Shown here piece by piece: positions 2,831 to 31,500 of a stretch of DNA of 34,571 bases. Made by a program: the position numbers and the translations under genes. This stretch comes from an uncultured Clostridia bacterium (lineage in GTDB: Bacteria; Bacillota; Clostridia; Christensenellales; Aristaeellaceae). The notes under the pieces are model-generated. The model did no database searches. It was not told the DNA's origin and saw only the letters and a list, made by a program, of their open reading frames with translations. The stretch's first letter is position 1, and each line of letters opens with the position of its first letter. Location: the NCBI GenBank assembly GCA_946413245.1, contig CAMKJS010000030.1, positions 1-34,571 of the forward strand, in the 5' to 3' direction.

Positions 2831-2931
2831 TAATCGTCCTTTGTCTGGTTCAGAAGCCAGGACATGATCCCGTACTCGTTGCAGCAGGTCGGGATCCGGC
2901 TGGCGTGGTTTTCGCTGAACAGGCGCGGATA
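2831..2931 (-). pseudogene. 3'-end remnant of a second esterase gene (left copy)
   Basis: Read on the minus strand, about 32 codons give a C-terminus containing FSENHASRIPTCCNEYG and ending with a TAG at 2831-2833. It matches the restored C-terminus of the esterase pseudogene at 17915-19013 with a few substitutions (for example W to R and Y to C). The rest of the gene is missing: sequence passes directly into the end of the CE15 gene at an ATA shared by both sides (2929-2931). It carries the likely catalytic histidine of the lost enzyme but is not expressible as a protein on its own. Confidence 0.8.
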
Positions 2932-3986
2932 AATTCGAAACAGCGCTGCCAGTCTTCCCGGCTCAGGGCGTGGGTTCCGCCGCGCAGGTGATAGCCGACG
3001 CTTCCTTCCCGAAACACGTCCCCGGGCTCCGGCAGCCTGTCGGGATGAACGAACCCCGGCAGGCCCAGACGCTCGTACACCTTGCCGGCCGCGCAGCAGG
3101 ACAGGTACTCGGAATCCGGGTCCGACCAGGTATCCTCCACGGCACTGGCCACGTAGACGTATCTCGGCGCGCAGCCTGCCAGAAGAAAATGCTGGTCGAA
3201 GGGCATCTCCTCTTCCCGCCCGTCGTATTTCCGGTATTCCGGCGCGAACCAGTACGGGAACACCGATCCGATCCTTCCCACGGTTTCTCCCGCCTTGCCG
3301 CGGTTCAGGGCGGCGCCGGCGCAGCCGGACTCGTTGGAAAGCACGAACCGGAACCGCTCGTCCATCAGGCCGGTAAACAGCGCCGCCTTACCCAGCCGGG
3401 AATGCCCCAGCACGGCGGAACGGGTAAAGTCCAGGCAGTCCAGGGTCTCGCAATAGTCCATGACCCGGGAGGCGGCCCAGGACCAGAGAGCGATCTTGCC
3501 GCAGTCGCTGCCGGCACGTTCCCGGCCGCCGAACACCGTTCCGGCCAGGCCGCTTGAAAAATCCCCGTCGTCCGCGGTCACGTCCCCGTAGCCGAAGGCG
3601 AACAGCGCGAATCCGTTGTCGATAATTTCCTCGGTCGGCATCAATCCGTCCGGCATATCCGGCCTGAAATTCATGTGGACGAAGAACGGAAGATTCTTTT
3701 TTCCTTTGGGAATCACAGCGTACACCGGGAAGAAAAACTCCCGCCCGTTCAGCTTTCCGCGGATCTCTGTTTTCCGCAGGGACGCCTTCCCAGCAAAGAA
3801 ATGGCCGGAAAACGGTCCTTCGGGCTGTTCGGCAAAGGTCAGCTCCTCCGGCTCTCCGGGCCGGAAACCGTAGACCTCCCGCTGCAGGATCTCTTTGATT
3901 CCTTCCCGGCGGGACGCCCAGTCCGCACTGTTTCCGTCCCATACCTCCGGCAGGTTTCTTTTTGCCAGCAGTTCGTCGCACAGCAT
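2850..3986 (-). CDS. CE15-type glucuronoyl esterase, left copy with replaced C-terminal tail
   Basis: 378 residues. CE15 enzymes cleave the ester between 4-O-methylglucuronic acid of xylan and lignin alcohols. The nucleophile elbow GHSRLGKAAL puts Ser at residue 196, an acidic candidate lies in SNESG (about 219) or AVEDTW (about 284), and the histidine is in GGTHALSREDW (about 339). No signal peptide is visible, so it would act in the cytoplasm on imported oligosaccharides. The ATG at 3986 follows AAAGGA; an upstream in-frame ATG at 4034 has no ribosome-binding site. Compared with the copy at 19033-20106, the ending LSRQ after FEFI is replaced by 25 unrelated residues read from the neighbouring esterase remnant, owing to a deletion. 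The core is otherwise identical over most of its length and is probably still functional. Confidence 0.72.
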   Translation of the reverse strand: MLCDELLAKRNLPEVWDGNSADWASRREGIKEILQREVYGFRPGEPEELTFAEQPEGPFSGHFFAGKASLRKTEIRGKLNGREFFFPVYAVIPKGKKNLPFFVHMNFRPDMPDGLMPTEEIIDNGFALFAFGYGDVTADDGDFSSGLAGTVFGGRERAGSDCGKIALWSWAASRVMDYCETLDCLDFTRSAVLGHSRLGKAALFTGLMDERFRFVLSNESGCAGAALNRGKAGETVGRIGSVFPYWFAPEYRKYDGREEEMPFDQHFLLAGCAPRYVYVASAVEDTWSDPDSEYLSCCAAGKVYERLGLPGFVHPDRLPEPGDVFREGSVGYHLRGGTHALSREDWQRCFEFIRACSAKTTPAGSRPAATSTGSCPGF

Positions 3987-4138
3987 ATGGTTTTGTTCCT
4001 TTCTGTCCGATTGTCCGGTCGTAATTTTATGCACCGCTTTCGCAGTTCATTATTCAGCAAACCGACTGGTATGTCAGGACGCTGTTTCACCAACATGCCG
4101 AACAGGCCTTATCTCTGCTCGGATCATGATCTCTCTTT

Positions 4139-5813: not shown

Positions 5814-6659
5814 TTAAAGCACCAGGGTGGGAATACTTCGCTTGTGAAAAGGCGACAACCATATTTCCGGTTTGGCACTGGTATCAAACTGCGGTTGGTA
5901 TTCAAGTCCGATCATACTATATTTCGCACCGGCGGTGATATGATAGGGGAGTAATTCGACACGGATCAGCGAACCCGGTTTTTCAAAGATGGCGGCTGTT
6001 TCTTCCATATTGTTTTCATCGTCGTTTACACCGGGGATAAGCGGTATTCGGATAATATATGGTGTGTTACCTTCCTTCAGCAGCTTCAGATTCATCAGAA
6101 TACGGTCATTATCAACGCCAGTATATTTTTTGTGATTGATGGGGTTGATAAGTTTGATATCCATCATGATGAGATTGACCTTGCTGCACATCCGGGAAAA
6201 GGTTTTCACATCAGTATAACCGGATGTTTCAATAGCAATATGGATTCCCGGCAAATAATATAGTACCTGTTCAATAAAGCTCCATTGCATCATCGGTTCT
6301 CCGCCTGAAAAAGTTACACCGCCACCGCTGCCGGAAAACGCTTGTTGATTTTTAAGCAGGCGCAATGCCAGCTCCTTTGATGTCCAAACAGTACCGGCGA
6401 TACGGCGAAGCCCGAGCGGGCAGCAGGATACACATGCACCACAGGTAATGCACATCTTGTGATGACAGGCATTTTGACAGGCGCCGCAGTGGATACAGGC
6501 GGCGGGACTGATCATCAGTTGCGGCTTAGGGGACAACCCTTCCGGATTATGACACCACTGGCATCGCAGCGGACAGCCCTTCATGAATACAGTTGTTCGG
6601 ATGCCTGGACCGTCATAAACCGCAAATTCTTTGATATCAAAAATAATACCTGTTTTCAT
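5814..6659 (-). CDS. Glycyl radical enzyme activating enzyme (radical SAM)
   Basis: 281 residues, PflA-type. It uses S-adenosylmethionine and a [4Fe-4S] cluster to make the glycyl radical on its partner. The radical-SAM motif is C29-x3-C33-x2-C36 (CPLRCQWCHNPEG) after YDGPGIRT, with GGEP in TFSGGEPMMQ. A ferredoxin-type insert carries two cysteine sets, C55/58/61/65 and C70/73/76/80, separated by only four residues and so more compact than in most relatives. The start ATG overlaps the stop of the glycyl radical enzyme gene (ATGA at 6656-6659), typical of this enzyme-activase pairing. The substrate is set by the partner. Confidence 0.92.
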   Translation of the reverse strand: MKTGIIFDIKEFAVYDGPGIRTTVFMKGCPLRCQWCHNPEGLSPKPQLMISPAACIHCGACQNACHHKMCITCGACVSCCPLGLRRIAGTVWTSKELALRLLKNQQAFSGSGGGVTFSGGEPMMQWSFIEQVLYYLPGIHIAIETSGYTDVKTFSRMCSKVNLIMMDIKLINPINHKKYTGVDNDRILMNLKLLKEGNTPYIIRIPLIPGVNDDENNMEETAAIFEKPGSLIRVELLPYHITAGAKYSMIGLEYQPQFDTSAKPEIWLSPFHKRSIPTLVL

Positions 6660-8677
6660 ATTGTCAGCTCGGCACGTTTAATGATGTGATCCTGATAACA
6701 TTTATCCAGTTCAACAAAATAACCGCTCCAGCCCCATACACGGACAATCAGGTTTCTGTATGCTTCCGGATGCTTTTGCGCGTCAAGGAGCTGATCTCGG
6801 TTGACCGTATTCAGTTGCAGCTGATGCCCGCCCAATTCTATGAACAGCCTGACAAGCTGTGCGACTTTTGTGATGGCTTCGTCATTTCGAAAGACTGAGT
6901 CTGAAAATTCGATTGTCAGAGGACCACCGTTGATTGCTTCTTTAAAATCGGGTCTGGCAAAAGACTTGATAAGCGAAATCGGCCCCTCTAGTCTGATATT
7001 CAGCGATGGCGCCCAGTTGGCTGGCAAGGGTGTTTCTGCACTGCGGCCATCTGCAGTTGCGCCTAATGAGGAAGCATGCCAGATATAATACATTGCGGAA
7101 CCGGTTCCCGCCCGGTAAATACCTCCACGCTCATTGGACAGGTTTTTTACGGCTTGCGAGAACATGTGCAGCAAAAGCACTGCGTATTGATCCACCCGAA
7201 TGTCGTCATTTCCCATTTTGGGGCAGTCGAATTTCAGATAATGCTGCAGTTCTTCAAAACCTTTAAAGTTCCGATCCAGCGCTTCAAACAGTGAACTGAC
7301 AGAGATGTTTCCGTGGAATACTGCGGCATCAACGGCCGCAAGAATATCCGATGCGGTGGCTATGCCTGTACCGTGAAGGCCAAAGTTGTTATAGACGCAT
7401 CCTAATGAAATGTCTTTCTTGTTTTTGAGACATCCGTCAAAAAACAGTGACATAAAGGGAGAAGGGATGATGTAAAGATCATGATATGTCTCGGCAAGTT
7501 CAAGTACGGTTTTTTTGATTTTGTTTTCCACATACGGGAGGAGCTCGTCAATCGAATGAACCTCACTGAGCTTTTCCCGGATCACTGAATGGATAATCCC
7601 GGCAAAGGAAACGGCACCGATGTTCGGAATATCCATCCCTTTTCCGGGTATGATGAATTCCCAGCATGCAGCCATGGCGTAGTTACGGGCATCTTCTTCC
7701 CGGTACCCCAAAGCCACTAATCCGGGTATTGCGATATCGTCGTTTTCATATTGCGGGAATCCCAATCCCAATTTGGTCAACTGTGTACCGAGTTTATAGA
7801 TATCAAGGGGTGTATCCCTGCTGACACGCAGATTGATTTTGGGATCAATCAGACGAAGGTCTGCGGAGGCTTTCAGGCACATCTCACTCAGCTGGTTATA
7901 ACCGCTTTTTCCATCTGGCGTCATTCCACCAAGCACGATGCTTTGGCCGTTGTCACCCTGCTGCATCCCGAAATACAGATCGCTGTCCCGGTTGCATGAA
8001 AGAAAAAAAGCCTCCAGTAATTCCATGGCGTCTTCTTCTGTCAGTGCGCCATGGTCAAGATCATGTTGAAGATATGGCATCAAGTACTGATCAAATCGGC
8101 CGAGCGTATTGTGATAATTGCCTTCGCACCACATGGCATAATGGAGAATGCGAAGAGATTGAAGGGCTTCCCGGAAGGTAGCGGCGGGATATGCCGGAAC
8201 ACGCATAAGGATATTGGCAAGTTCAGAAGCACCCATGTCAGCAGCTGCCTGCCGGTAACGGCTTGTAAAATCGAGTACCGCATCGATGGAGATGCGCATG
8301 GCTTGATGATAAGGCGAATCATCTGTTTGTTCACGCAGATGAAGCAGCCCTGTTTGTATGACAGTTCCATAATCCGGGGACAGATTGGTGACGGTGCCGC
8401 GTTCGTGAATATAATGCGCTTTTCCGATCTGCTCCCATTCATCATCATCGTAGATCATTGGCAACTCTGCAAGTGTACGGGTGCCTGCAATGATCTCTCC
8501 GGGAGCAAAAACAGGTTTTTCATGATCCAGTGCTGTTTTCAGCCGAAGTGCTGTACGCATATAGTCAGGCAGTTTTTTGTCACGGTAGGAATCAATAGGC
8601 GGGAGCTTTGTCTGCCTAAATGCATGGTGGTTTTTTTCAAACTGCCAGGATCTGATCTGACGGATTCTTTCGTTCAT
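6656..8677 (-). CDS. Glycyl radical enzyme of unassigned substrate (PFL-like family)
   Basis: 673 residues, shorter than the 780-850 usual for diol, choline or hydroxyproline enzymes. The C-terminal glycyl loop reads RVWGWSGYF, placing the radical at Gly649 where most members have RVxGY. The active-site loop reads YAMAACWEFIIPGKG, giving Cys338 and Glu340, the Cys-x-Glu arrangement of glycyl-radical eliminases rather than the Cys-Cys of pyruvate formate-lyase; the residue before Cys is Ala instead of the usual Gly. Downstream, NNFGLHGTGIA matches the conserved HG region. It lies 6 bases after the GH51 gene and overlaps its activase gene, inside an arabinoside operon. A dehydratase or C-X lyase acting on a sugar-derived or aglycone compound is my inference; no specific known class is recognised. 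Confidence 0.9.
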   Translation of the reverse strand: MNERIRQIRSWQFEKNHHAFRQTKLPPIDSYRDKKLPDYMRTALRLKTALDHEKPVFAPGEIIAGTRTLAELPMIYDDDEWEQIGKAHYIHERGTVTNLSPDYGTVIQTGLLHLREQTDDSPYHQAMRISIDAVLDFTSRYRQAAADMGASELANILMRVPAYPAATFREALQSLRILHYAMWCEGNYHNTLGRFDQYLMPYLQHDLDHGALTEEDAMELLEAFFLSCNRDSDLYFGMQQGDNGQSIVLGGMTPDGKSGYNQLSEMCLKASADLRLIDPKINLRVSRDTPLDIYKLGTQLTKLGLGFPQYENDDIAIPGLVALGYREEDARNYAMAACWEFIIPGKGMDIPNIGAVSFAGIIHSVIREKLSEVHSIDELLPYVENKIKKTVLELAETYHDLYIIPSPFMSLFFDGCLKNKKDISLGCVYNNFGLHGTGIATASDILAAVDAAVFHGNISVSSLFEALDRNFKGFEELQHYLKFDCPKMGNDDIRVDQYAVLLLHMFSQAVKNLSNERGGIYRAGTGSAMYYIWHASSLGATADGRSAETPLPANWAPSLNIRLEGPISLIKSFARPDFKEAINGGPLTIEFSDSVFRNDEAITKVAQLVRLFIELGGHQLQLNTVNRDQLLDAQKHPEAYRNLIVRVWGWSGYFVELDKCYQDHIIKRAELTI

Positions 8678-8683
8678 TTTTCA

Positions 8684-10189
8684 TCACTCCGATAAACTGA
8701 TCGACAGGGACACAACAGAAGCTGCGGGAACAGTGATACTATTGCCGTCTGCAAAATGAAGAGGCTTCGTCTTGGGCATAACTGCCGTTGGATTTTCAAA
8801 GGTATTGCAGGTCATGGGATCTGGCGTGCTGAGGACGGTGATTTCACCATTTCCTGCAACCGTCCTACCAATACCGCTGATACAGATTTCACGCGAAGCG
8901 GTGATATCAAGATTGGCAATGGTGATCGTCAGTATTTGATCTTTGATGGAGGATGATACAGAAAGCATCGGCAATTCGCCATATTTATTATTCTCAATCG
9001 CGGAAGTCAGCACGCTGCTCTTGATATGTTTCGCTCCCTGATGACTCCGATACATGGCGAAAACATGGTAATTTGGTGTTTCTATAAAACTGTCACCGCC
9101 TGCCAGAAACAAAGAATGCAGATTGTTGCATAGTTGAGCAACATTAGCCATTCCGACTATATCGCAGGCGTTGTTAAAAATATTCAGGGTCAGAGCAGAG
9201 ACAACTGCGTCCCGCATATTGCTTTGCTGCTCAAACAGATTATATCCCTTGCTTGGCCCTGTACCGTTTTTATGCCAATTTCCCCATTCATCCACAACGA
9301 GTTTGAGCTTTCTCTCGGGATCGTATTCGTCCATAATAAACCGATGATCATAGATGATTCTGTTCATGAAAGCGGCACGGAATAATTCATCATACCATTG
9401 ACTTTCATCAAAATTCAAATCATCTTTACCTGAATAGGTGCATGTGTAATAATGGATGCTAATGCCCCATGTCGGTACTTCCTGCCAATGGCGGGTTGCC
9501 CATTCTTTCATCAGCCGTTTTGTCCAGTTAAGATCATGCGCATTTGCGCCGCACATGATAAACTTAAGGTTTTCTGTTCCAAGGCTGCGGCAAATGGTTG
9601 TATAACGGATAAACTCTCTGGCGCATTGCTCAGGAGTCATTTGTCCGCCGCCACCCCAGTTTTCGTTTCCGATACCCCAGTATTGAACGTTGAACGGATT
9701 AACCGCCCCATTGGCTGCCCGTTCATCTGATAAAGTTGTCAGACCTGCCGGGAAATTGCAATACTCAATCCAATTCCTGATCTGGAGAGGAGTCAGTGAG
9801 GTCATATTTGCAGCAACATAAGGCTGTGCACCGACCATTTCGCAAAAGTCCATAAATTCATGTGTTCCTACATGATTGGTTTCGATACGTCGATCTTCGT
9901 AGTACCACCAATTAACGCGCCTGGGGCGCTGTGCGCGTGGACCGATTCCGTCACGCCAGTCATATGTTTCGGCAAAACAACCGCCCGGCCATCGCAGGAT
10001 CGGGGGAGCTATTTTTTTGAAACTTTCCACGAGCGACTTGCGGAATCCGTGAATATTGTCAGTTTTGCTGTTTTCACCTACCCAGAGACCGTCATAAAAC
10101 ACTCCGCCAATATGTTCGGCAAAATGTCCGTAAATATTCGGAGTGATAATGCCGTTGGAATGATCGAAGTCAATGAAGATTTTGTCCAT
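8684..10189 (-). CDS. GH51 alpha-L-arabinofuranosidase
   Basis: 501 residues, near the family norm. It releases terminal alpha-L-arabinofuranosyl groups by a retaining mechanism. The acid/base is Glu176 in WGIGNENWGG and the nucleophile is Glu301 in VVDEWGNW. N-terminal GHFAEHIGG and LRWPGGCFA are also family hallmarks. No signal peptide is visible, so it should act in the cytoplasm on imported arabino-oligosaccharides. The start at 10189 follows GAGGTG; an ATG three codons earlier lacks proper spacing. It sits between the secreted GH39-like gene and the glycyl radical enzyme gene. Confidence 0.93.
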   Translation of the reverse strand: MDKIFIDFDHSNGIITPNIYGHFAEHIGGVFYDGLWVGENSKTDNIHGFRKSLVESFKKIAPPILRWPGGCFAETYDWRDGIGPRAQRPRRVNWWYYEDRRIETNHVGTHEFMDFCEMVGAQPYVAANMTSLTPLQIRNWIEYCNFPAGLTTLSDERAANGAVNPFNVQYWGIGNENWGGGGQMTPEQCAREFIRYTTICRSLGTENLKFIMCGANAHDLNWTKRLMKEWATRHWQEVPTWGISIHYYTCTYSGKDDLNFDESQWYDELFRAAFMNRIIYDHRFIMDEYDPERKLKLVVDEWGNWHKNGTGPSKGYNLFEQQSNMRDAVVSALTLNIFNNACDIVGMANVAQLCNNLHSLFLAGGDSFIETPNYHVFAMYRSHQGAKHIKSSVLTSAIENNKYGELPMLSVSSSIKDQILTITIANLDITASREICISGIGRTVAGNGEITVLSTPDPMTCNTFENPTAVMPKTKPLHFADGNSITVPAASVVSLSISLSE

Positions 10190-10212
10190 GGTACACACCT
10201 CGTTCTTAGTTT

Positions 10213-12117
10213 TTATTCTTTTCTCAGCTTCATCGTGACATGTATATTGGGCATCAGTTGATAGGCTTCCACAGTAATCGTTGTACGTCCAGTCCAGTCG
10301 TTTGGTGCAAATTTAGCAACAGGTATTTCTATGACAGATAAATCATGAACGATTTGTTTTATGTCCGCGGGTTTCATAGTACCAAAGGGGAAAGAATAAT
10401 CGGATGGCTCCCCTGCATGCAGCAATAAAGCTTTCGAATAACCGTAATCCGAAGCATAGTCGATTCGAATTGAAAAACTGCCGGTGTTTAGCTCACTGTC
10501 CGTCAAGCCGGAAATATGCATACAGAGCCAGTCCGGTGTCTGATCCAGCGTTGTACCACATAGCAGTCTTACATCTGTTTGACTGCCTGTTCCCAGATAG
10601 AATGTGTTTTCTCTGGAATCAAACCATGAATATGCATCGGTTTGCCGTTTTTCAAACCAATAATGATTCCTGACATGATGCCCAATGGTGTAGTTGTCAA
10701 GATATGACGTGAAATCTTTTGCATTACTGGGCGAAAGTATGAGGTAAATAACTGATCGCCCGGGAATTGTTCCTTCCCAGACAGACTGATTGCTTTTTAT
10801 GACAACACTTTCCTGCACTTCCAGATGTTGTGTACCGCCGGACATAGCGTCAGCATTTTTTTCATCTATTCGATACAGACGCAACTGACAGGTATCGAAT
10901 GGAATGTTATTCAACTCAATCCGGATTCGCTGATTATCATACTGACGATTCCATGCGAGGACAGCAGCTTTATTTGAGTCTGCTGATGCGAAAGCGCGGA
11001 GTATTCGCCTGGAACTCGTGGTCACGGATACTCTTTCCTCTGGCATATCGCTATAACACTTCAAAGCATTATAACTGGCTTTGACTCTACCGTCTCTATT
11101 GACGAGGCCAAAAGCATGCGTGTTGAAATCAATATCCATGAATTGGGTCCAGTTCACCATTGTAATATCCGTTATATTCAGCAAATCATCGAACAGGTCA
11201 AGCATTGAAGGACAGATTGCATGGAAATTGCAGACGCTGTCCTGCGTATATGCGTCACTGAATACATTGAGCTCATTCAGGTGAAGTTCTGTTTTCTTCA
11301 GTTTGGGGTATTGTTCTAATGCTTCATAGATTACTTGAAGCTTTCCGGCGATGGGACTATCGGAAGTATAAGCATGGAAAGAGAAAAAATCTAGTGGCAG
11401 GTCTTCTGCGTCAATCATAGCTAGGAACTGCTTGATCTGTGAACGGTTTTGTGCAAATGCTACTGCTGGCCCACCGATAACAGCATCGGGATCACCTTTT
11501 AACAAAGCTTGTGAGCCATATCTGTACAAATCCAGATATACATTCCAGTTTTCAAGAAGGAACATGTTGGAAAGGTCAGGCTCATTATAGACCTCATGAT
11601 AACCTATTTGAACATTGTTTGCCCGAAAATGGCGTGCGGATGTTTCGAGAATATCTGACCAGATTTCTTGCCAATGAGCAACATTTTTGTTCAACTTTCG
11701 ATTATCGCCGTTATCATTGATGGGTTCCGGAAGGTAGCACCATGAATAATATGGAAGTACATTCTTTTCATTCAACAATTTTGCGACGCGTTCAATATCA
11801 TCAAAATCATAGATAAGATGATCTGCGGAACCGGTAACGGTTTTATGACCAAGCATCACAGATGAGCCACCCATACCAAGGTCTACCCGCAGGGAGGCAA
11901 CATCCAACTCTTGCAGCAGAGCGATATCGCGTTCGTAATGGCTCAGCGAAGTACAGCCGGAGTTATAGACAGAAAACTTTTTGATAAGCGGAACACCGCT
12001 GCGCACAGAGAAATCAACCGTTAATGAAGCATCGGGCATATTTTTCTCCCCTTTAGCGAAATTGCCTGAAAACATGAACGAAAACAGGATGAGCAGTAAA
12101 CATATTCTGTACAACAT
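10213..12117 (-). CDS. Exported GH39-like glycoside hydrolase
   Basis: 634 residues with an N-terminal signal peptide (hydrophobic residues 5-20). The catalytic barrel follows: acid/base Glu179 in YHEVYNEPDL and candidate nucleophile Glu282 in ELHLNELNV, spaced as in clan GH-A family 39 (beta-xylosidases, arabinosidases, iduronidases). A beta-sandwich follows, then a C-terminal region of about 150 residues that may be an added beta domain. Export suggests it trims xylosyl or arabinosyl ends outside the cell before uptake by the transporter encoded just upstream. The start follows AAAGGG and lies 5 bases after the permease gene. Family assignment is fair; substrate is not determinable from sequence. 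Confidence 0.75.
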   Translation of the reverse strand: MLYRICLLLILFSFMFSGNFAKGEKNMPDASLTVDFSVRSGVPLIKKFSVYNSGCTSLSHYERDIALLQELDVASLRVDLGMGGSSVMLGHKTVTGSADHLIYDFDDIERVAKLLNEKNVLPYYSWCYLPEPINDNGDNRKLNKNVAHWQEIWSDILETSARHFRANNVQIGYHEVYNEPDLSNMFLLENWNVYLDLYRYGSQALLKGDPDAVIGGPAVAFAQNRSQIKQFLAMIDAEDLPLDFFSFHAYTSDSPIAGKLQVIYEALEQYPKLKKTELHLNELNVFSDAYTQDSVCNFHAICPSMLDLFDDLLNITDITMVNWTQFMDIDFNTHAFGLVNRDGRVKASYNALKCYSDMPEERVSVTTSSRRILRAFASADSNKAAVLAWNRQYDNQRIRIELNNIPFDTCQLRLYRIDEKNADAMSGGTQHLEVQESVVIKSNQSVWEGTIPGRSVIYLILSPSNAKDFTSYLDNYTIGHHVRNHYWFEKRQTDAYSWFDSRENTFYLGTGSQTDVRLLCGTTLDQTPDWLCMHISGLTDSELNTGSFSIRIDYASDYGYSKALLLHAGEPSDYSFPFGTMKPADIKQIVHDLSVIEIPVAKFAPNDWTGRTTITVEAYQLMPNIHVTMKLRKE

Positions 12118-12122
12118 ATATA

Positions 12123-13001
12123 TTACCCTTTAATACTGCCAAGTAGCAAACCTTTCGTGAAATACTTTTGGAAGAAGGGGTAAGTAGCAAGGATAGGCAG
12201 TGTTCCAATGAATACTTTTGCGGCACGGGCAGTTTTATCCCCGACTTTTGACAGTCGCTCAATTTCAAACTGTGAGAGGTTATCGTATTTGACTTTAACA
12301 GTGGCTGATTGCAAATATGTCATTAAAGGATAATTTTTTGGTGTACTCATCAGGATCATCCCATCAAACCAGCTGTTCCAGATGCCGAGCATAGAGTACA
12401 CGGCAATGGTAGCCAACGCAGGTGCTGATAACGGGATAAAAACGCTAAACAGGATCTTCCACTGGGAAGCGCCGTCAATCACAGCTGCTTCCTCAAGATC
12501 TTTTGGAATGCCTCGAAAAAAGTTAAGGATCAGAAGCACAAAAAAGGTTGATACACCGCCCGGGAGAACCAAAGCCCAAATCGTGTTCAGAAGTCCAAGC
12601 CTGTGAATATTAAGGAACCATGGGATTGTTCCACCGCTGAATAGCATGGGGATGAAAAAGAACCATGCCATAGCGGTTCTTGATCTGAATTCATGATTAT
12701 TTTTACTTAAGGGATAAGCGGACAGAACGGTCAAGGTCAGTTGAAGCAGGACGCCCATGACCAGCCTTTCAACGGATATCCACATAGAACGCCAAAAACT
12801 GCTGTTTTTCAGAATATATTCATAGGAGACCAGTGTGAATCCTTTAGGCCAGAAGGTAACATCTCCCAGATTAACATACATACTGGTGGACAGAGATGTG
12901 GCGAGGATATGGATCAAAGGCGCCAGGCAGATGAGCCCCAGGAGACCAAGAAAAATATTTATGAAAATGGATGCAATGTGCTCCTGTTTAGTCTCTATCA
13001 T
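12123..13001 (-). CDS. Carbohydrate ABC transporter permease, LplC/YtcP type
   Basis: 292 residues with about six membrane helices. The cytoplasmic EAA loop is EEAAVIDGASQWKILFSVFIP, where the shared ATPase docks (the last residue quoted begins the next helix). It pairs with the permease encoded 11 bases upstream to form the channel of a sugar importer. The ATG at 13001 is chosen because AAGGAG precedes it by about 8 bases; a longer reading frame to 13076 has no ribosome-binding site and overlaps the upstream gene. No ABC ATPase gene is present in the operon. Confidence 0.9.
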   Translation of the reverse strand: MIETKQEHIASIFINIFLGLLGLICLAPLIHILATSLSTSMYVNLGDVTFWPKGFTLVSYEYILKNSSFWRSMWISVERLVMGVLLQLTLTVLSAYPLSKNNHEFRSRTAMAWFFFIPMLFSGGTIPWFLNIHRLGLLNTIWALVLPGGVSTFFVLLILNFFRGIPKDLEEAAVIDGASQWKILFSVFIPLSAPALATIAVYSMLGIWNSWFDGMILMSTPKNYPLMTYLQSATVKVKYDNLSQFEIERLSKVGDKTARAAKVFIGTLPILATYPFFQKYFTKGLLLGSIKG

Positions 13002-13012
13002 CAGTCCGCTCC

Positions 13013-13933
13013 TTAGAAAATCCTGTAATCGGCGAGTCGATAAGCTAAGAAATAGGACAGGCAAACCAAAAAACAACTGAATACTGATTTGGCGAAGCCA
13101 ATGGCTGTTGAAAGGGAATAATTAGCTTCGACAATACCCAAGCGGTATACCAATGTATCGATTACGTCTCCGCTTTCCAGTAAGGTGGTGTTATACATAT
13201 TAAAAATCTGATCAAAATTCGCATTGAAGATACCACCTATACTCAGCAGCAGCATCAAAACTATAATTGGTATAATACCAGGGATTGTGATGTGCCATAT
13301 ACGTCTGAATCTGCCTGCTCCATCCATGATAGCGGCTTCATAAAGGGCGGGATCAATGGAAGTGATGGCAGCCAGATAAATAATCGAATTGAAACCAAAT
13401 TCCTTCCAAACATCTGTAATAACCAACAATGGCTGGAAGGTTTTGTTTGTAAAAAACTTAAAGGGCGGAATGCCACATTTCTGGAAAATATTGTTAACCA
13501 AACCGTCGGAGGCAAGTATATCTTTAAAAAGGATCCCAAGGATTACCCAGGAAATAAAATGCGGCAAGTAGAATAGTGTCTGGAGGATGCGCCGATAGCC
13601 GGTTGACCTGATTTCATTAAGCAGTAAAGCCAGGAGGATTGCAGCGGACAAATGGCAAACCAGCTTTTGAAGAGAAATGGAGACAGTATTGCGAACAGCT
13701 GGAAGGAAATACGGATTGATAAGGATTTTTCTGAAATTTTCCAGTCCGACCCATTTTTGATCACCGAATAATCCCTTGAGTGGGTCAAAATTCTGAAAAG
13801 CGATAATCAGTCCGCCCATTGGGTAATACTGGAAAATCAGTAAAAAAACAAAACCAGGAAGAAGCATCAGGAGATACTGTATTTCCTTTGAAAGCCGAAA
13901 ATATGATTTCTTCTTCGGTTTGCGATACTCCAT
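13013..13933 (-). CDS. Carbohydrate ABC transporter permease, LplB type
   Basis: 306 residues. After a basic N-terminus comes the first membrane helix, followed by FQYYPMGGLIIAFQNFDP, typical of LplB/YteP-type permeases of complex-oligosaccharide importers. The EAA loop is YEAAIMDGAGRFRRIWHITI. It forms the heterodimer with the next gene's product. AAGGAGG lies 6-10 bases before the ATG. A strong stem-loop separates it from the solute-binding protein gene upstream. Confidence 0.92.
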   Translation of the reverse strand: MEYRKPKKKSYFRLSKEIQYLLMLLPGFVFLLIFQYYPMGGLIIAFQNFDPLKGLFGDQKWVGLENFRKILINPYFLPAVRNTVSISLQKLVCHLSAAILLALLLNEIRSTGYRRILQTLFYLPHFISWVILGILFKDILASDGLVNNIFQKCGIPPFKFFTNKTFQPLLVITDVWKEFGFNSIIYLAAITSIDPALYEAAIMDGAGRFRRIWHITIPGIIPIIVLMLLLSIGGIFNANFDQIFNMYNTTLLESGDVIDTLVYRLGIVEANYSLSTAIGFAKSVFSCFLVCLSYFLAYRLADYRIF

Positions 13934-14010: not shown

Positions 14011-15711
14011 TTACTCATTCATTTCGTTAGTGATTTGCTCCCCGCCGTACTCATTCCATTCATTCACAAAGGTATCGAAGGCGTCAATATCCAGTTCACC
14101 GGTGATGATCCGGGTAAAGTAAGTTTTTGCCAGTGTATCGAGTGTACCCCAGTTGTCGCGGTAGGTGTCTGTTGTGATAGGACTTTTTTTGTCAATGTTG
14201 AGCATGTCGTTGTCTATATAGTATTTGAGGATCTTGAATGCCTGTCCGCATGTGGTATGGCCGAAGTAATCACGTGCGAATTCCGGGGCACTGTAATCAG
14301 TTTCAGGTCCTTTGACAGCATTCGGATAAATGACGTGAGTACCTAACGGGAGTCTGCGCCATTCCTCACCTTTCTCAAAGAAGGCCTTTGAGTCAGCATA
14401 ATTTGCCAGATTAAGATATGAGGCATAGACTTTTCTGATGTCTTCATCAGCATCGGTTTTGATGGCGGTAAAGGTATTTATCCATTTCTGCATATTATTG
14501 TGGACTGTTTCGGGACGAATAAGTGCGAGTTCCCAATCAGGCCAGAAATCATTGGCGTAATAAAGATAGTCATCCAGATTAAAATCTTCCACGGTTGAAC
14601 CATACTCAGTGCCATAATAGTGTATCATGTTCAGCATCTTAACAATAGCTTCCGGATGCTCGAATCCTTTTCTGACAACGAAGTAGCGGTTTGTATTGTT
14701 ATAAGCTGTCACGGTTTCAGCGCCGGGAATCGCACAGGAGATCCACTGGGAATCAGGATTCGACAGGTACAGGTCGACGAATGCGTTTCCGGTCCATGCG
14801 GTCCACTGCTTGCCAAAAGCAATACCGGCCTGTTCATGAAGCACAAGCTGAGACGCTCCTCCATTATCCTTTTCATAGAATTCAGGATCGATTTTTCCTT
14901 CTTTATACATCTGGGCCAGAACTGTCAGCGCTTCTTTCATCTCAGGCTGAACACCGCCGTAAACGATTTTGCCGTCCTTCTCGATCCAGGTGTCCGGGAA
15001 TGCACCAAACATATTAGCAAATGCGACGATGTCGTAAGTGCTGGGATACAGAGTACCGCTAAAGGCAAAGGCATAGGTATCGTTCTGTCCGTTGCCGTCT
15101 GGATCCTGAGTGGCAAATGCATCCATGATAGCCAGCATTTCATCTTTTGTCGTCGGTGCAGAGAGGCCGAGCTTTTCCAGCCAGTCACTGCGGATAAACA
15201 CAGCACGTGTTGTTTCTTCGATCGGTGAGACCTCTGGTATGCCATAGAGTTTTCCGTCATAGGTTGCTGCTGCCAGCGCAGTCTCACCGCTGGCTGCGTA
15301 AAGTGATAATGTTTTATCCGTTGCATAATCCTTCCAGGCGTCAGTCAGGTCACAGATCAGATCTGCATCAACAAGCTTTTTAAGCTGTGTAGCGTTAACA
15401 GGGAATATGTCGGGGAGCTCCTGCGTCACAAACATCATGCTGACGCGAGCATCATACTGATCGTCCATGATCAGCCATTCATACTGTAAATCGATATTCA
15501 GATCTTCCTTGTAACGTTTAATGAATTCATTGTTTTCATAGGAGGTTTCATCAACATTGGATGAAATATTGCGTGCTGCGATGACGGTTACAGGGGCTTC
15601 ATAGGGCATCAGGCCGATCGGAAGTGCTTTTTCTTCCGCAAGCGAGGCGGCAAACAGAGTCGTGCAAAGTATCAGACACAGGATAATGGATAGAATACGC
15701 TGCTTCTTCAT
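14011..15711 (-). CDS. Extracellular sugar-binding protein, LplA type
   Basis: 566 residues. It captures oligosaccharides for the two permeases that follow. The N-terminus is an export signal ending around FAASLAEE. No cysteine follows in a lipobox arrangement (the cysteine in LILC is preceded by Leu), so it does not look like the usual Gram-positive lipoprotein. The body has the large type-1 solute-binding fold with YLNLANYADSKAFF-type helices near the C-terminus, as in LplA-like proteins of about 500-560 residues. A strong AAAGGAGGAG precedes the ATG by 5 bases. First gene of the operon, with its own promoter and the AraC regulator gene upstream. Confidence 0.9.
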   Translation of the reverse strand: MKKQRILSIILCLILCTTLFAASLAEEKALPIGLMPYEAPVTVIAARNISSNVDETSYENNEFIKRYKEDLNIDLQYEWLIMDDQYDARVSMMFVTQELPDIFPVNATQLKKLVDADLICDLTDAWKDYATDKTLSLYAASGETALAAATYDGKLYGIPEVSPIEETTRAVFIRSDWLEKLGLSAPTTKDEMLAIMDAFATQDPDGNGQNDTYAFAFSGTLYPSTYDIVAFANMFGAFPDTWIEKDGKIVYGGVQPEMKEALTVLAQMYKEGKIDPEFYEKDNGGASQLVLHEQAGIAFGKQWTAWTGNAFVDLYLSNPDSQWISCAIPGAETVTAYNNTNRYFVVRKGFEHPEAIVKMLNMIHYYGTEYGSTVEDFNLDDYLYYANDFWPDWELALIRPETVHNNMQKWINTFTAIKTDADEDIRKVYASYLNLANYADSKAFFEKGEEWRRLPLGTHVIYPNAVKGPETDYSAPEFARDYFGHTTCGQAFKILKYYIDNDMLNIDKKSPITTDTYRDNWGTLDTLAKTYFTRIITGELDIDAFDTFVNEWNEYGGEQITNEMNE

Positions 15712-15915: not shown

Positions 15916-16770
15916 TTATGCTCTATCAAACGGTTCTGCATCAATGATGGATTTTTCGGATTTGGGTTTATAGTTTGTCGGAGTATCACCGGTGATCTGC
16001 TTAAAAACCCTGTTAAAGCAGCGTATATTCTGGAAACCACACTCGAAAGCGATCCTGGATATGGTCATATTCTGCTGTTCTATCAGTTGACAGGCATGAT
16101 TGATCCGAAGAAGATTGACATATTCACGAAAGTGCAGTCCTGTTTTGTCACGGAAGTAATGAGACAGGTAATCTTTGTTATAACCGATATCAGCGCCCAT
16201 ACTTTCCAGTTTAACATTTTCCAAATAATGGTCGTTAACATAGCTCAAAATCTGTTGAAGTATGTTTCCATCATCCTTTGGCGCATCTATCAATTTGATG
16301 TTGTTTAGATATCCCGCACAGACCGCATAGCAGCTTGCTTTGATATCCAGATAACTGAGTTTTTCTTTGGGAAGCGTTACATATAGAGCGTACAAATAAT
16401 TATAAAGTGCTTTATCCGCAACAAATTCACTCTGTTTTCCGATTTTACCTGTAATTCTTCTCATAAAAGCGCCGACATATTCGACAGAAAAATTAACGAC
16501 AACACACTTGGAATAATGTGGAGTTGAAAACGCATGGATCTGGTTGGATAAAAACAGTGCGATATTGCCGGCGTCGATTTTACCGGAATGATATGGAGTT
16601 GAATAATCGACCTCACCTTCAAGAACCAGGACAAACTCAAGATCTTTATGCAAATGTGGCACAAAAACAAAATTTGTATAAGAAACAATTCGAAAGTGAT
16701 CCCGGCTTGACGAGTTATCCGCTTGATACAGTAATCGGCTGAATTTTGTCTTGCTGATGGTTTGACTCAT
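15916..16770 (-). CDS. AraC-family transcriptional regulator
   Basis: 284 residues. The N-terminal cupin sensor domain includes VPHLHKDLEFVLVLEGEVDY (about 35-55), which resembles the sugar-binding domain of AraC-type activators. The C-terminal double helix-turn-helix (about 180-275) includes YNKDYLSHYFRDKTG and IAFECGFQNIRCFNRVFKQ, ending in the typical PxxY-like turn (TPTNYK). The start at 16770 is spaced 9 bases from GGGAG; the ATG at 16779 would leave no spacing. It lies directly upstream of, and in the same direction as, the uptake/hydrolase operon, so it likely activates it in response to an arabinoside or xyloside. Confidence 0.9.
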   Translation of the reverse strand: MSQTISKTKFSRLLYQADNSSSRDHFRIVSYTNFVFVPHLHKDLEFVLVLEGEVDYSTPYHSGKIDAGNIALFLSNQIHAFSTPHYSKCVVVNFSVEYVGAFMRRITGKIGKQSEFVADKALYNYLYALYVTLPKEKLSYLDIKASCYAVCAGYLNNIKLIDAPKDDGNILQQILSYVNDHYLENVKLESMGADIGYNKDYLSHYFRDKTGLHFREYVNLLRINHACQLIEQQNMTISRIAFECGFQNIRCFNRVFKQITGDTPTNYKPKSEKSIIDAEPFDRA

Positions 16771-16809
16771 GTAAAACATCTCCCTGTGCAGATCAAGATT
16801 ATTGTTAAA

Positions 16810-19032: not shown

Positions 19033-20106
19033 TTACTGACGGGAAAGAATAAATTCGAAACAGCGCTGCCAGTCTTCCCGGCTCAGGGCGTGGGTCCCGC
19101 CGCGCAGGTGATAGCCGACGCTTCCTTCCCGGAATACGTCCCCGGGTTCCGGCAGCCTGTCGGGATGAACGAACCCCGGCAGGCCCAGACGCTCGTACAC
19201 CTTGCCGGCCGCGCAGCAGGACAGGTACTCGGAATCCGGGTCCGACCAGGTATCCTCCACGGCACTGGCCACGTAGACGTATCTCGGCGCGCAGCCTGCC
19301 AGAAGAAAATGCTGGTCGAAGGGCATCTCCTCTTCCCGCCCGTCGTATTTCCGGTATTCCGGCGCGAACCAGTACGGGAACACCGATCCGATCCTTCCCA
19401 CGGTTTCTCCCGCCTTGCCGCGGTTCAGGGCGGCGCCGGCGCAGCCGGACTCGTTGGAAAGCACGAACCGGAACCGCTCGTCCATCAGGCCGGTAAACAG
19501 CGCCGCCTTACCCAGCCGGGAATGCCCCAGCACGGCGGAACGGGTAAAGTCCAGGCAGTCCAGGGTCTCGCAATAGTCCATGACCCGGGAGGCGGCCCAG
19601 GACCAGAGAGCGATCTTGCCGCAGTCGCTGCCGGCACGTTCCCGGCCGCCGAACACCGTTCCGGCCAGGCCGCTTGAAAAATCCCCGTCGTCCGCGGTCA
19701 CGTCCCCGTAGCCGAAGGCGAACAGCGCGAATCCGTTGTCGATAATTTCCTCGGTCGGCATCAATCCGTCCGGCATATCCGGCCTGAAATTCATGTGGAC
19801 GAAGAACGGAAGATTCTTTTTTCCTTTGGGAATCACAGCGTACACCGGGAAGAAAAACTCCCGCCCGTTCAGCTTTCCGCGGATCTCTGTTTTCCGCAGG
19901 GACGCCTTCCCAGCAAAGAAATGGCCGGAAAACGGTCCTTCGGGCTGTTCGGCAAAGGTCAGCTCCTCCGGCTCTCCGGGCCGGAAACCGTAGACCTCCC
20001 GCTGCAGGATCTCTTTGATTCCTTCCCGGCGGGACGCCCAGTCCGCACTGTTTCCGTCCCATACCTCCGGCAGGTTTCTTTTTGCCAGCAGTTCGTCGCA
20101 CAGCAT
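19033..20106 (-). CDS. CE15-type glucuronoyl esterase, right copy
   Basis: 357 residues, the unaltered version of the gene at 2850-3986, ending FEFILSRQ. It carries the same catalytic elements (Ser196 in GHSRLGK, His about 339 in GGTHALSREDW) and the same start context (AAAGGA before ATG 20106). It is the first gene of a two-gene unit with the esterase pseudogene. The 5' leader of about 150 bases up to the palindrome is identical to the left copy except near the palindrome loop. Cytoplasmic action on imported glucuronoxylan fragments is inferred from the lack of a signal peptide. Confidence 0.75.
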   Translation of the reverse strand: MLCDELLAKRNLPEVWDGNSADWASRREGIKEILQREVYGFRPGEPEELTFAEQPEGPFSGHFFAGKASLRKTEIRGKLNGREFFFPVYAVIPKGKKNLPFFVHMNFRPDMPDGLMPTEEIIDNGFALFAFGYGDVTADDGDFSSGLAGTVFGGRERAGSDCGKIALWSWAASRVMDYCETLDCLDFTRSAVLGHSRLGKAALFTGLMDERFRFVLSNESGCAGAALNRGKAGETVGRIGSVFPYWFAPEYRKYDGREEEMPFDQHFLLAGCAPRYVYVASAVEDTWSDPDSEYLSCCAAGKVYERLGLPGFVHPDRLPEPGDVFREGSVGYHLRGGTHALSREDWQRCFEFILSRQ

Positions 20107-20220
20107 ATGGTTTTGTTCCTTTCTGTCCGATTGTCCGGTCGTAATTTTATGCACCGCTTTCGCAGTTCATTATTCAGCAAACCGACTGGTATGTCAGGAC
20201 GCTGTTTCACCAACATGCCG

Positions 20221-27683: not shown

Positions 27684-28586
27684 TTATCGCTTATACGCGT
27701 TCCGAACCACGGCGGCGACGGTTTCGTCGGTTTCGTCTTCCCGAAGGCGCCGGGCTGCCACCACGCGGCGGGAATCGTCCGAGCCCTCGCAGGTAACCAG
27801 CAGCAGCAGCTGATCCTCGGCGGTGACGTTCACCCGGGTGTCGATGCAGGAGTATAGCTGCAGCTGCCGCAGGCAGGCCTCCCGCTGCTCCACCGCCATG
27901 CCGGGCAGCTGCATGAAAGGCGCGTAATGGGACAGGCCGTAAATGAGATCCACGTCGGCGACGGCGAAAATCACATACCTGGCCTCTTCATAGAGGACGC
28001 TGAAATCCACAATCGGATTGCCGCGGTAATATGCCGGATTTTCATACAGGCGCAGGCTGCCGAACATTTTCCCGTTTTTCATGTTGTGGCCGAAGATAAT
28101 ATAGGTATCCGGCCGGGAGCGGAGGCTGATGTGCTCCTCCAGAAACAGGGCGCCGTTGCCGTTGTGATAGCCTGCTGTATCCCGCTTGAGATAATAGGTG
28201 TTGTCCCGCTGCACGACGGGCTCCTCCAGCAGATCCGGGATGGAGAGCCAGCCGACGACGTCGCTGTTGCGGCGGCGCAGCTTCTGCAGGGAGGCGGAAA
28301 CAGTCATGGAGGGGTTGTCGGGCCAGCCCTGTACGACGGGCGTCGCGGCCGGCTGATCCTCTTCCGCTTCGGCGCGGGGAAAAACGACGGTGAAGTCCTG
28401 AAGGACGGAACCGAGCCGGGGTATTTCTTCAGGCGGATCCGTGGGATCGGCCCGCAGTTCCTGAAAGATCTGCCGCTCCGTTTCCACGCGCCGGGCGTCG
28501 GCCCAATAGCGGACAAGGCCCACGCCGCACACCAGCAGCAGGCAGAGACAGCCGGCCGTGAAGATTATCCGTTGAGGCCGCCGCAT
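27684..28586 (-). CDS. Class B sortase
   Basis: 300 residues with an N-terminal membrane anchor (about 8-25). Catalytic residues are His167 (IIFGHNMKNGKMFGSL), Cys266 (LLLVTCEGSDDSRR) and Arg273. HNMKNGKMF and the extra helix before the catalytic Cys are features of class B rather than class A. It joins the C-terminus of a substrate to the cell wall. Its start overlaps the end of the surface-protein gene by 22 bases, pointing to that protein (VPKTG signal) as its dedicated substrate. AAGGGGTGA precedes the ATG. Confidence 0.92.
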   Translation of the reverse strand: MRRPQRIIFTAGCLCLLLVCGVGLVRYWADARRVETERQIFQELRADPTDPPEEIPRLGSVLQDFTVVFPRAEAEEDQPAATPVVQGWPDNPSMTVSASLQKLRRRNSDVVGWLSIPDLLEEPVVQRDNTYYLKRDTAGYHNGNGALFLEEHISLRSRPDTYIIFGHNMKNGKMFGSLRLYENPAYYRGNPIVDFSVLYEEARYVIFAVADVDLIYGLSHYAPFMQLPGMAVEQREACLRQLQLYSCIDTRVNVTAEDQLLLLVTCEGSDDSRRVVAARRLREDETDETVAAVVRNAYKR

Positions 28587-31500
28587 TGCCGGTCACCCCT
28601 TTTTCTGCCGCGCAGCACAAAGACGAATCCGGCCAGGCTCAGGAGGATACCCAGCAGCCACCAGAGGAGAGGTGCGTCGTCCCCGGTTTTGGGCACCCTG
28701 GTGACGGTGAGCTTCGCGGAGGAGCTGGTAACGGAGTCTCCCAGAGCGTCGGTGATGACGCAGCGGTACAGATTGCCGGTCATATCCAGCGTGACGCCCC
28801 GCAGGGTGAGGGAGGAACCGGTGGCGCCTGTGATATCCACCCAGCTGCCGCCGGGCGTCTTTACCTGCCACTGATACTGATAGGGGCCGACGCCGCCGGA
28901 GACGCCCACGCTGAACACTGCCTCGGAGCCTTCCGGCACGGTCTGGTCCTCCGGCTGGGTGATGACCATCAGGGAGGCTGTATCCAGATAAATCACGTCC
29001 CGGTTGCTGAGGAGGGTACGTTCCGTATAATCCTTGCCGGTGACCTCCAGGGTGACTTTATAGGCGCTGCGGCCGTCGGTCAGCAGAGAGAGCGGCATTT
29101 CCAGACTCCAGGTCTCCTTGTCGCTGACGTCCTCCGGCAGGCTGTAGCGGAAAACGGGGGTTTCTTCGTCGTCGAGGAAGGCTTCCAGCACGACGCTGTT
29201 GGCGCTGCGGCTGGCTTTGGCCAGGTGGCCCGCGTTGGTCAGGATCACGTTGACCATGGGCGTTCCGTGGTCGTCCCAGCGCCTGGCGTGGATTTCCAGA
29301 TCCATGGGATCGGTGTCCAGCTGGATGCTTTCAAAGGTAACGTCGGTTTTATACATGGCCAGGTCGTCCCGGGTGGCGTTGGAGACGACGCCGTCGACCG
29401 TACGGGTGAGGGAGCCGTTCCGGTGGATCGCGATCACGCTGCGGGGAGCGGAAGCAGCTTCGCTGCCGTTGGCGGCGGAATCGCCGGGCAGCCGGGCGAC
29501 GTTGCTGAAATTGCCCTGCGCTTCGGTGAAGAGCGTTTCCACCTCCAGATAGATGTGGTGCGCGCCGCCTTCCCAGTTCTGGGGCAGAAGCAGGGAAATG
29601 TTGAAGGCCGCGAAGGTTCCGGGCATGATCAGGTTGGTCTGCATCAGCTGCTGGGTTTCCTCAACAACATTGGAAATCCGGCCCTGATAGTGGCGGGAGG
29701 TGATCAGCCAGAGCTGGGAATCCTCCTCGTTGAAGCTGCTTCGGATCTGCCGGGCGACGGTTTCACCCGACTTCTGCTCCTTCACGCCTTCCAGGCCTTT
29801 CTGGAGGGTGATCCGGTTTTTGGCGGGCTCGACCACGTCCAGATGAATGCTCTCAAAGGCTTTGGGTTCGTCGCTGCCGAACTGGTCGTAGGCCAGCAGA
29901 TCCAGGCCGGAGAGGGGCACGTTGCCGTCGTTGTACACGGTGAGAACCAGGTCGTCGTAGGTGCCGGGCTCGGCGAGGGTGCTGCTGAGGACGTTCCCGA
30001 CCAGCCGCAGGCCCACGACCAGCTGGAAGTTGAACCGGCAAATCCGGTTGCCGTTCGGGTTGTTCACGATAAAGAAGCCGCTGTTGTTGCCCGCCAGCAC
30101 GACGTTGGTGGGAACGCTGTCCTCGCTGTCGGTGCAGATGGTGGCCAGGACAAATGGCTCGGAGACAGTGTTGTTGGAAGCGTCGTACCATACGCCCCGT
30201 ACCCGGAACAGATTGCCGCCGCTGTCCTCATCGGTCCCGGCGGTTTCAAGCCAGTAAACGCACTCCTGGCCGTAGAGCGTGGTCCAGTACAGGTCGGTGG
30301 GGGGAACGACCACGTCGTAATCATAGGTGGTCCAGAACATGTTCTTGTTCGTACTGGTGGGCAGAAGACCCATGAGACCGTAATGATCCCCGTTCTCCTG
30401 AGGCTGCACCATAAAGATCATGCGGCGGTATTCGTCCCCCAGGTTTACATTCCGGGAAGCGATGGAGAATACGTTGTTTGCATAGACCTTGGTTCCCCTG
30501 CTGAAGCCGTGGTCATGGCCGAGAGAATAGAGGACAGAGTCGAACTTCTCATCATGTACGAGGGTGAAATAAATGGTGGATCTGCCCACGACGACTTTCG
30601 CGGAGGAGTATCTCACGGGCTCTGTGTTATCCCGTATGTCATAGAAGATCAGGTCCTCAAAGGTTTGTTTCTCAAAGAAGTCGTCCGTTTTCTCCAGGTC
30701 TTCGATCCATTTCTCGGCGTAGCCGTTTTCCTCCACATAGGAATATATGGCGCAGGGACGCTTGCTGTGGTAGTTGAGATCGGTCTGGTTCAGCGAGCGG
30801 GTGACGATCCGGTACATGGTCATGAACTTTTTGCCTTGGGTAAAGACGATATCTCCGAAAATGCGCGGATTGCTGCCCGGGTGGGTATAGTTTTTATCCG
30901 CACTCGCGGTATCGATGCTTTCCGCCAGATAGGTTCCGCCCTTTGTAAGAACCACCGGCTCCAGACGGTAAACGCCCTTCTGTTCGCGCAGCCACCAGAC
31001 CCGTACATAAGTATAGGTGACAGAGGGCACGGTATAGGTTTCGGTTGTGAAGTCTTCCTGGATGACTTCCTGCTGCTCGTAATCCTTCGCGAGAATCGCC
31101 ACGGTGAACAGCACGTCCGTCAGGAGAACGCCGGTGCTGCCCTGAGAATATGTATACGCTTTGGTGCCGGACACGTCCGCGACCCAGAAATCGTAGTCGA
31201 TCACCTCATAGCCGTCTCCGGGCATAAAGGCGTCGGAGCCGTCGCTGTTGCGGGTCAGGAGCGGCACGGCGGGCTGATTGTTGTCCGAGAGGGCGTGGGA
31301 TACCAGAATCGGACGGTTGAAGGTTCCCTCCGGGCCGGAGTAGGATTCATCCGTGTACAGGGTCATGGGTACGGTGGCAGAGCCGGAGCCGCTGGCGCGC
31401 ATGGAGAACAGCCGGTTGCGCGAGGCCTTGCCTACGCCGCCGTAACCGGCTTTCATGCCGACCTCCTCCGGATGAAGCACCAGATCTTCATTGTTCAGAT

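Follow-up and report, generated by a model that had tools for sequence, protein, structure and literature searches.

A conserved and uncharacterized subfamily of CxE-type glycyl radical enzymes with a possible role in L-arabinoside breakdown

The described glycyl radical enzymes (GREs) closest to the one reported here are eliminases with a Cys-x-Glu (CxE) motif, whose residues have the catalytic roles outlined in PMC7077986. They include the glycerol dehydratase of structures 1r8w and 1r9d, the propanediol dehydratase of structure 5i2g, the trans-4-hydroxyproline dehydratase HypD, which shares the CxE motif and acts on a five-membered ring, and YbiW and PflD of Escherichia coli, CxE eliminases of sugars that open the ring of anhydrohexitol phosphates (anhydroglucitol- and anhydromannitol-6-phosphate) to give 1-deoxyfructose-6-phosphate, as outlined in PMC12441222. 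Elsewhere in the superfamily, PMC6453916 names R187, Q191 and R676 as the sulfonate residues of the isethionate lyase IslA and describes a GRE network whose edges were drawn at about 60% identity to separate activities. The subject of this report is a GRE of 673 residues encoded at 6656..8677 on the minus strand (ATG start) of a 34,571-nucleotide stretch of DNA from an uncultured Clostridia bacterium (contig CAMKJS010000030.1), hereafter the window. Judged by its sequence, it is a CxE-type representative of an uncharacterized subfamily within the known GRE superfamily, and we tentatively propose that this subfamily serves in the breakdown of L-arabinosides. No title linking a GRE to L-arabinose or arabinosides was found among those listed in searches of open-licence literature.

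A chance match is excluded by the scores of the protein against the PFL-like domain (PF02901, 307 bits) and Gly_radical (PF01228, 74.5 bits with a cut-off of 22.2), and the hallmarks of the superfamily are present: a glycyl loop, RVWGWSGYF, containing Gly649, a barrel cysteine, Cys338, and a cognate radical-SAM activase gene. Cys338 stands with Trp339 and Glu340 in the sequence AACWEF. Both residues Cys338 and Gly649, as well as the C-W-E motif typical of CxE eliminases, were found in 32/32 family members compared, across which the CxE and Gly loops are invariant. The codons of the Cys loop (residues 326-352, including Cys338, Glu340 and the invariant Asn352) map to 7622..7702(-) by arithmetic from the ORF start. 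An initial annotation of this DNA had given coordinates, strand and length that proved exact on checking, and had singled out RVWGW and ACWEF as atypical motifs; both are present and turned out to be a conserved signature of the family. Every NCBIfam GRE equivalog model matched by the protein scores far under its cut-off (bits/cut-off: HypD, 297/1100; PRK09983, 263/1109; sulfopropanediol, 235 and 232/1000; CutC, 231/1050; indoleacetate, 190/1100; hydroxyphenylacetate, 151/1150; pyruvate formate-lyase (PFL), 85/994), and the broad PFL2-3 subfamily model gives 321 bits against a cut-off of 678.

A scan of genome contigs returned 97 stretches with relatives of this GRE, 80 of which (45-68% identity) were kept; added to these, the window and 19 loci of the window organism's order bring the set to 100 loci (97 distinct). 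The family is found in Clostridia, Bacteroidales, Spirochaetes, Lentisphaerae, Kiritimatiellae, Verrucomicrobia and Planctomycetia, and is an oxygen-sensitive, unstudied radical enzyme family of anaerobes, many of them from the gut and rumen. AACWE occurs in 73/73 aligned relatives and R[VI]WGWS in 72/73, the remaining one being cut at a contig end; ACWE is present in 99/100 loci of the full set and R[VI]WGW in 96/100. The four loci missing R[VI]WGW are L082 and L113, both cut by contig ends, L019, and L121 (genome G445), which has neither motif and, on this evidence, is probably not a working member. In L019:8468-10504, where the contig ends, RVWDW stands for the glycyl loop, with the radical Gly replaced by Asp through either mutation or sequencing error. 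Neither motif alone is unique to the family: in some other short GREs the glycyl Gly is likewise followed by Trp, and ACWE is found once outside the family. Members score at least 892 bits against the family profile and other GREs at most 371 (16 genomes, the named references and the window's genome); the lowest scores over the 100 loci are 504 bits (L121) and 787 bits (L120). In a tree of 58 sequences, the 32 members form their own clade (support 1.0), separate from HypD, CutC, YbiW, PflD and the Pdu-type GRE. Short GREs of Oligosphaera ethanolica (L162, L164-L167 and L169), several of which have Trp after the glycyl Gly, join this clade (support 0.953) but reach no more than 338 bits against the family profile, versus at least 787 for all family loci except the doubtful L121. 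The genome of this species (G032) yields twelve Gly_radical matches, and several of its short GREs group in the tree with none of the reference classes. The GRE and its activase are the constant unit of the family, forming one cluster in 53/73 loci; the others are perhaps cut or miscalled. We note that the window's genome carries a second GRE (L180:2695-4965; G000:C68) with the motifs GCGE and RVGGF, followed by an activase-like ORF and with an ABC permease-like ORF nearby, both recognized by eye.

The AlphaFold model of the window GRE (pLDDT 90.1, pTM 0.91) finds its best fold match in the glycerol dehydratase 1r8w (TM 0.88, 25% identity), and the predicted barrel, CxE loop and Gly loop are like those of 1r8w, 1r9d and 5i2g. 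The best solved structures are nonetheless near 25% identity, and the window GRE is 114 residues shorter than the B12-independent glycerol dehydratase. The pockets also differ. The His shared by HypD (H160), propanediol dehydratase, YbiW and PflD is replaced by Asn98, and the Asp of propanediol dehydratase and PflD by Asn352, in 32/32 members. The corresponding residues of the Pdu-type GRE (L160) are H166 and D448, its pocket His and Asp; Trp stands in the window GRE where the Pdu-type enzyme has V and Y at the two loops. Opposite H160, D278, D339 and F340 of HypD, the family has N98, a gap, N243 and G244 in 32/32 members, and the carboxylate contacts of HypD are missing as well. Among profile matches PflD ranks second (371 bits); in the tree, PflD and YbiW branch apart from the family. 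The initial annotation had proposed a substrate unassigned in the classes known to it; that the GRE belongs to none of the characterized classes tested is borne out by NCBIfam scores, tree and pocket residues: clustering with conserved substrate residues was found for none of HypD, CutC, YbiW, PflD and the Pdu-type GRE. Much of a polar stretch at residues 229-245 is invariant in the family. It includes the loop DSDLYFGMQQGDNGQ (codons of residues 231-245, 7943..7987(-)), itself largely invariant, in which the model is least sure (confidence below 50 at residues 238-242); invariance combined with low model confidence fits a loop at 238-242 that, we infer, would become ordered on substrate. Since Asn98 and Asn352 are kept in 32/32 members and much of 229-245 is invariant, a single polar substrate common to the whole family appears likely. 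The placement of Y188/H189 against His282-Ser283 of propanediol dehydratase and YbiW is perhaps off by one, phmmer and MAFFT disagreeing at this point.

The reading we favor, with a confidence that falls a little short of even, is that of a CxE-type glycyl radical C-O eliminase used in L-arabinoside breakdown; it is a sugar reading because relatives of this GRE are often kept beside genes for the release and import of plant sugars, L-arabinose above all. By analogy with the characterized eliminases, on which the proposed catalytic steps are based, the activase would place a radical on Gly649, which would pass to Cys338 as a thiyl radical; this thiyl would abstract a hydrogen from a carbinol carbon while Glu340 deprotonates its hydroxyl, and the neighboring C-O bond would then break. 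From gene context, the substrate would be either L-arabinose, freed by GH51-, GH39- or GH127-type enzymes or imported by sugar porters, or a closely related pentose derivative, and the oxygen of the cleaved bond would be that of a hydroxyl, in a dehydration, or that of the ring. A narrower proposal, which we regard as rather unlikely, is a radical entry into pentose breakdown in which the enzyme acts directly on an unphosphorylated aldopentose, L-arabinose, and either dehydrates it to a deoxypentose derivative or deoxylactone or opens its furanose ring to L-ribulose; the enzyme would then stand among several short GREs of anaerobes that are directed at sugars. For microbes of the rumen and gut, L-arabinose is one of the major sugars of plant cell walls. 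A radical enzyme acting on it would add to fiber fermentation, across several phyla, an unrecorded step that has a redox balance and an oxygen sensitivity of its own. Because the family is compact and strongly conserved and has a member in a collection strain, Oligosphaera ethanolica DSM 24202, the question is testable now.

Gene context was read with marker queries searched within 5 kb on either side of the GRE, at loci whose gene calls were longest-frame picks, false frames included. At L005 and L007, genes for AraA, AraD and an FGGY kinase lie divergent from a GRE-activase-sugar ABC set, and at L006 an FGGY kinase of the same type and an isomerase stand ahead of GRE-activase. GH51 genes are found at the window, L008 and L011, and GH127 genes at L025, L048, L049 and L114. 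An AraR-like regulator (our label for a GntR + Peripla_BP_3 protein, presumably the AraR domain layout), GH127, a sugar porter and an arabinofuranosidase occur all together at the Bacteroidales loci L038, L039, L066 and L080, and in part at L028-L032, L034, L036 and L037. Loci of Kiritimatiellae, Verrucomicrobia, Planctomycetia and Lentisphaerae have a sugar porter, in some cases accompanied by a GH27-like gene; porters at family loci score over the sugar-porter cut-off and under that of XylE. The GH27/GH36-like neighbors, which we assume may be beta-L-arabinopyranosidases, were excluded from arabinose-gene counts. An AraR-like regulator, activase, GRE, porter and arabinofuranosidase are also found on a human faecal contig, MT836376; this entry (MT836376.1, L193) is filed as 'Bacteriophage sp.' (unverified), yet its arabinose locus with GRE looks bacterial. 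The initial annotation had proposed a pentose derivative or an aglycone as the substrate. The pentose link recurs in several lineages, whereas the aglycone finds no support because the informative contexts show sugar porters, AraA/AraD or XylA/XylB, which point to the sugar itself. Loci of other GREs, taken as a control, had markers in 0/17 cases; the way the markers were chosen biases this comparison, and the control loci come in large part from a single genome, that of Oligosphaera ethanolica.

Genome profiles were also compared. Among 396 genomes of the window organism's order, the GRE was found in 20 (G445 being doubtful), AraA in 44 and L-ribulokinase in 41. L-ribulokinase is present in 9/20 GRE genomes versus 32/376 others (Fisher P = 4e-5, ignoring kinship; 5 of the 9 belong to one family), and AraA in 1/20 versus 43/376 (P = 0.71, again ignoring kinship).

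A number of observations weigh against the favored reading. An L-arabinose-specific gene lies within 5 kb in only 23/100 loci (22/97 distinct) and any pentose or sugar marker in 40/100, with 5 kb available on both sides in only 49/100 (51/100 are short on at least one side), and the marker queries were themselves taken from the family's own loci. At some loci, xylose genes (L046) or GH27/GH36-like ones stand in place of L-arabinose genes. At the thresholds used, no ribulokinase model is matched by the kinases of L006, L007 and L188. Another 174 neighboring frames, hand-chosen from 328 with most named clusters left out, were tallied by Pfam family in lists of 25 families each; they revealed no common partner, and the idea that the operon has a conserved partner other than the activase was dropped. 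No L-ribulokinase match was obtained in 11/20 GRE genomes of the order, including G445, and the window's own genome (78.6% complete) gave neither an AraA match nor a clear L-ribulokinase.

Rival readings were also weighed, among which a dehydratase of pentitols or other pentose-derived polyols is unlikely in our estimation. Such an enzyme would dehydrate L-arabinitol or xylitol to a 2-deoxypentose; a kinase and a DeoC-type aldolase would then split this product to acetaldehyde, regenerating NAD. Diol dehydratases are presented as a main group among CxE eliminases in PMC7077986, and a distant short GRE with the motifs GCTE and RVWGY lies in one run (L174:195-13374; G275:C64) with an ABC importer and activase, both recognized by eye, an iron-ADH-like gene, an FGGY kinase and DeoC (195.6 bits, cut-off 117.3), an arrangement that suggests a deoxysugar formed by radical dehydration and then split to acetaldehyde. 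This GRE is, however, outside the family (237 bits to the profile). In the window, L003-L082 and L103-L121, its DeoC matched only L010, about 7 kb off; its alcohol dehydrogenase matches L020 and L048 and its kinase L010, L046 and L109, leaving no common partner. The deoxypentose route was set aside for the family of the window GRE, the DeoC/kinase pair of L010 being some 5-7 kb distant. It is less probable still that the enzyme is a radical isomerase that takes a hydrogen from C2 of L-arabinofuranose, cleaves the C1-O(ring) bond and returns the hydrogen at C1, yielding L-ribulose in place of AraA. AraA scores above 200 bits in 16 of 50 GRE genomes from several phyla and not in the other 34, 18 of which have a ribulokinase match of at least 398 bits; Treponema genome G039 has GH51-GH51-AraB-AraD and no AraA. 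The atoms of the isomerization are modeled on those we take to be involved in the ring opening by YbiW and PflD. These two enzymes set a precedent, for the favored reading too, in that they open a sugar ring by radical chemistry (outlined in PMC12441222). Compared with their E. coli loci, the run in the window lacks any PTS, FsaA/B or GldA gene. What weakened this explanation, strong at first, is an isomerase of about 490 residues with a Fucose_iso_C domain (L006:3432-4907, L188:6938-8452, L181:7403-8959), tentatively a possible stand-in for AraA. With its PF02952 C-terminus it was detected in 46/80 genomes searched, in 45 of them with a score of at least 417 bits, including the window's, and in 17 of the 34 genomes without AraA, G039 among them. 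It adjoins an FGGY kinase in L006 and an FGGY kinase with AraD in L188; of 10 stretches with the isomerase, this L188 layout was seen in 1, an XylB-like kinase in 2 and neither in 7. In favor of the radical isomerase, no such isomerase gene was found beside the ribulokinase matches in 16 stretches around them. The remaining 17 genomes have neither enzyme, and 4 of these, including Oligosphaera ethanolica, have a ribulokinase match of at least 398 bits; G012, also among the four, shows an AraA match of 27 bits, just above the Pfam cut-off. Such absences are weak because most of the 50 genomes are metagenome-assembled. AraA is moreover kept next to the GRE in L005 and L007, its frequency among AraB genomes is 0/9 with the GRE versus 9/32 without (P = 0.17), and a radical route would be costly for a reaction that AraA already performs.

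A conventional dehydratase of glycerol, propanediol or ethylene glycol that lies by chance in sugar operons would agree with glycerol and propanediol dehydratases being the best sequence and fold matches, but at some 25% identity and with Asn98 and Asn352 in place of the pocket His and Asp in 32/32 members, we hold it to be improbable. Nor did Pfam and NCBIfam scans find, among the genes of the window GRE's run, any microcompartment gene or any aldehyde or alcohol dehydrogenase gene, as the initial annotation had remarked. Very improbable is a HypD-like lyase that would split hydroxyproline-linked arabinosides (extensin, arabinogalactan protein) into arabinose and pyrroline-5-carboxylate. Hydroxyproline is the HypD substrate, and GH127 and GH39 enzymes are reported to act on arabinosides of such glycans; HypD residues D278, S334, D339, F340, Y450 and T645 are nevertheless represented by a gap, a gap, N, G, mostly A, and A, and no proC was found in the window's run or among 40 neighbors given singly to Pfam, the wider tallies listing 25 families each. 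PFL or another carbon-carbon cleaving GRE, finally, has in its favor the Pfam PFL-like domain and is scarcely credible given the CxE motif (A337-C338) where TdcE has adjacent cysteines and a PFL score of less than a tenth of the cut-off. The HypD-like, diol dehydratase and PFL readings were discarded on residues and scores.

In the window, the GRE gene is the last but one of a same-strand run in the order AraC, ABC importer, GH39, GH51, GRE and activase, in keeping with the overlapping activase and the placement after GH39-like, GH51 and importer genes that had been reported initially. The radical-SAM activase (281 residues, 5814..6659(-); TIGR02494 277.7 bits, above the cut-off of 174.35) overlaps the GRE stop by 4 bases. 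Upstream, 6 bases separate the GRE start from the end of a GH51-type alpha-L-arabinofuranosidase gene (504 residues, 8684..10198(-); Pfam Alpha-L-AF_C 123.5 bits, ASD1_dom 42.2 bits), the product of which scores 212.5 bits to NCBIfam ArfA, below the cut-off of 625, and shows no signal peptide by eye. The GH39-like glycosidase (634 residues, 10213..12117(-); Pfam Glyco_hydro_39 69.3 bits) is likely exported, given its hydrophobic N-terminus. The importer comprises two ABC permeases with BPD_transp_1 domains (12123..13076(-) and 13013..13933(-), the second with UgpA as its best NCBIfam match, below cut-off) and a solute-binding protein of 566 residues (14011..15711(-); SBP_bac_8), and is preceded by the AraC-family regulator (15916..16779(-); HTH_18, AraC_binding). 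Terminator and promoter scans were near chance (10 vs 9.8, and 32 vs 24.4 with a standard deviation of 5.0). Two glucuronoyl-esterase-like genes (2850-4034(-) and 19033-20154(-)) are identical over 369 residues within a 1270-base repeat at 99.5%, which may reflect a recent duplication or an assembly artefact. A further ORF of 1793 residues (28565-33946(-)), with a signal-like start and an LPxTG-like end, VPKTGDD, both seen by eye, probably encodes a surface protein.

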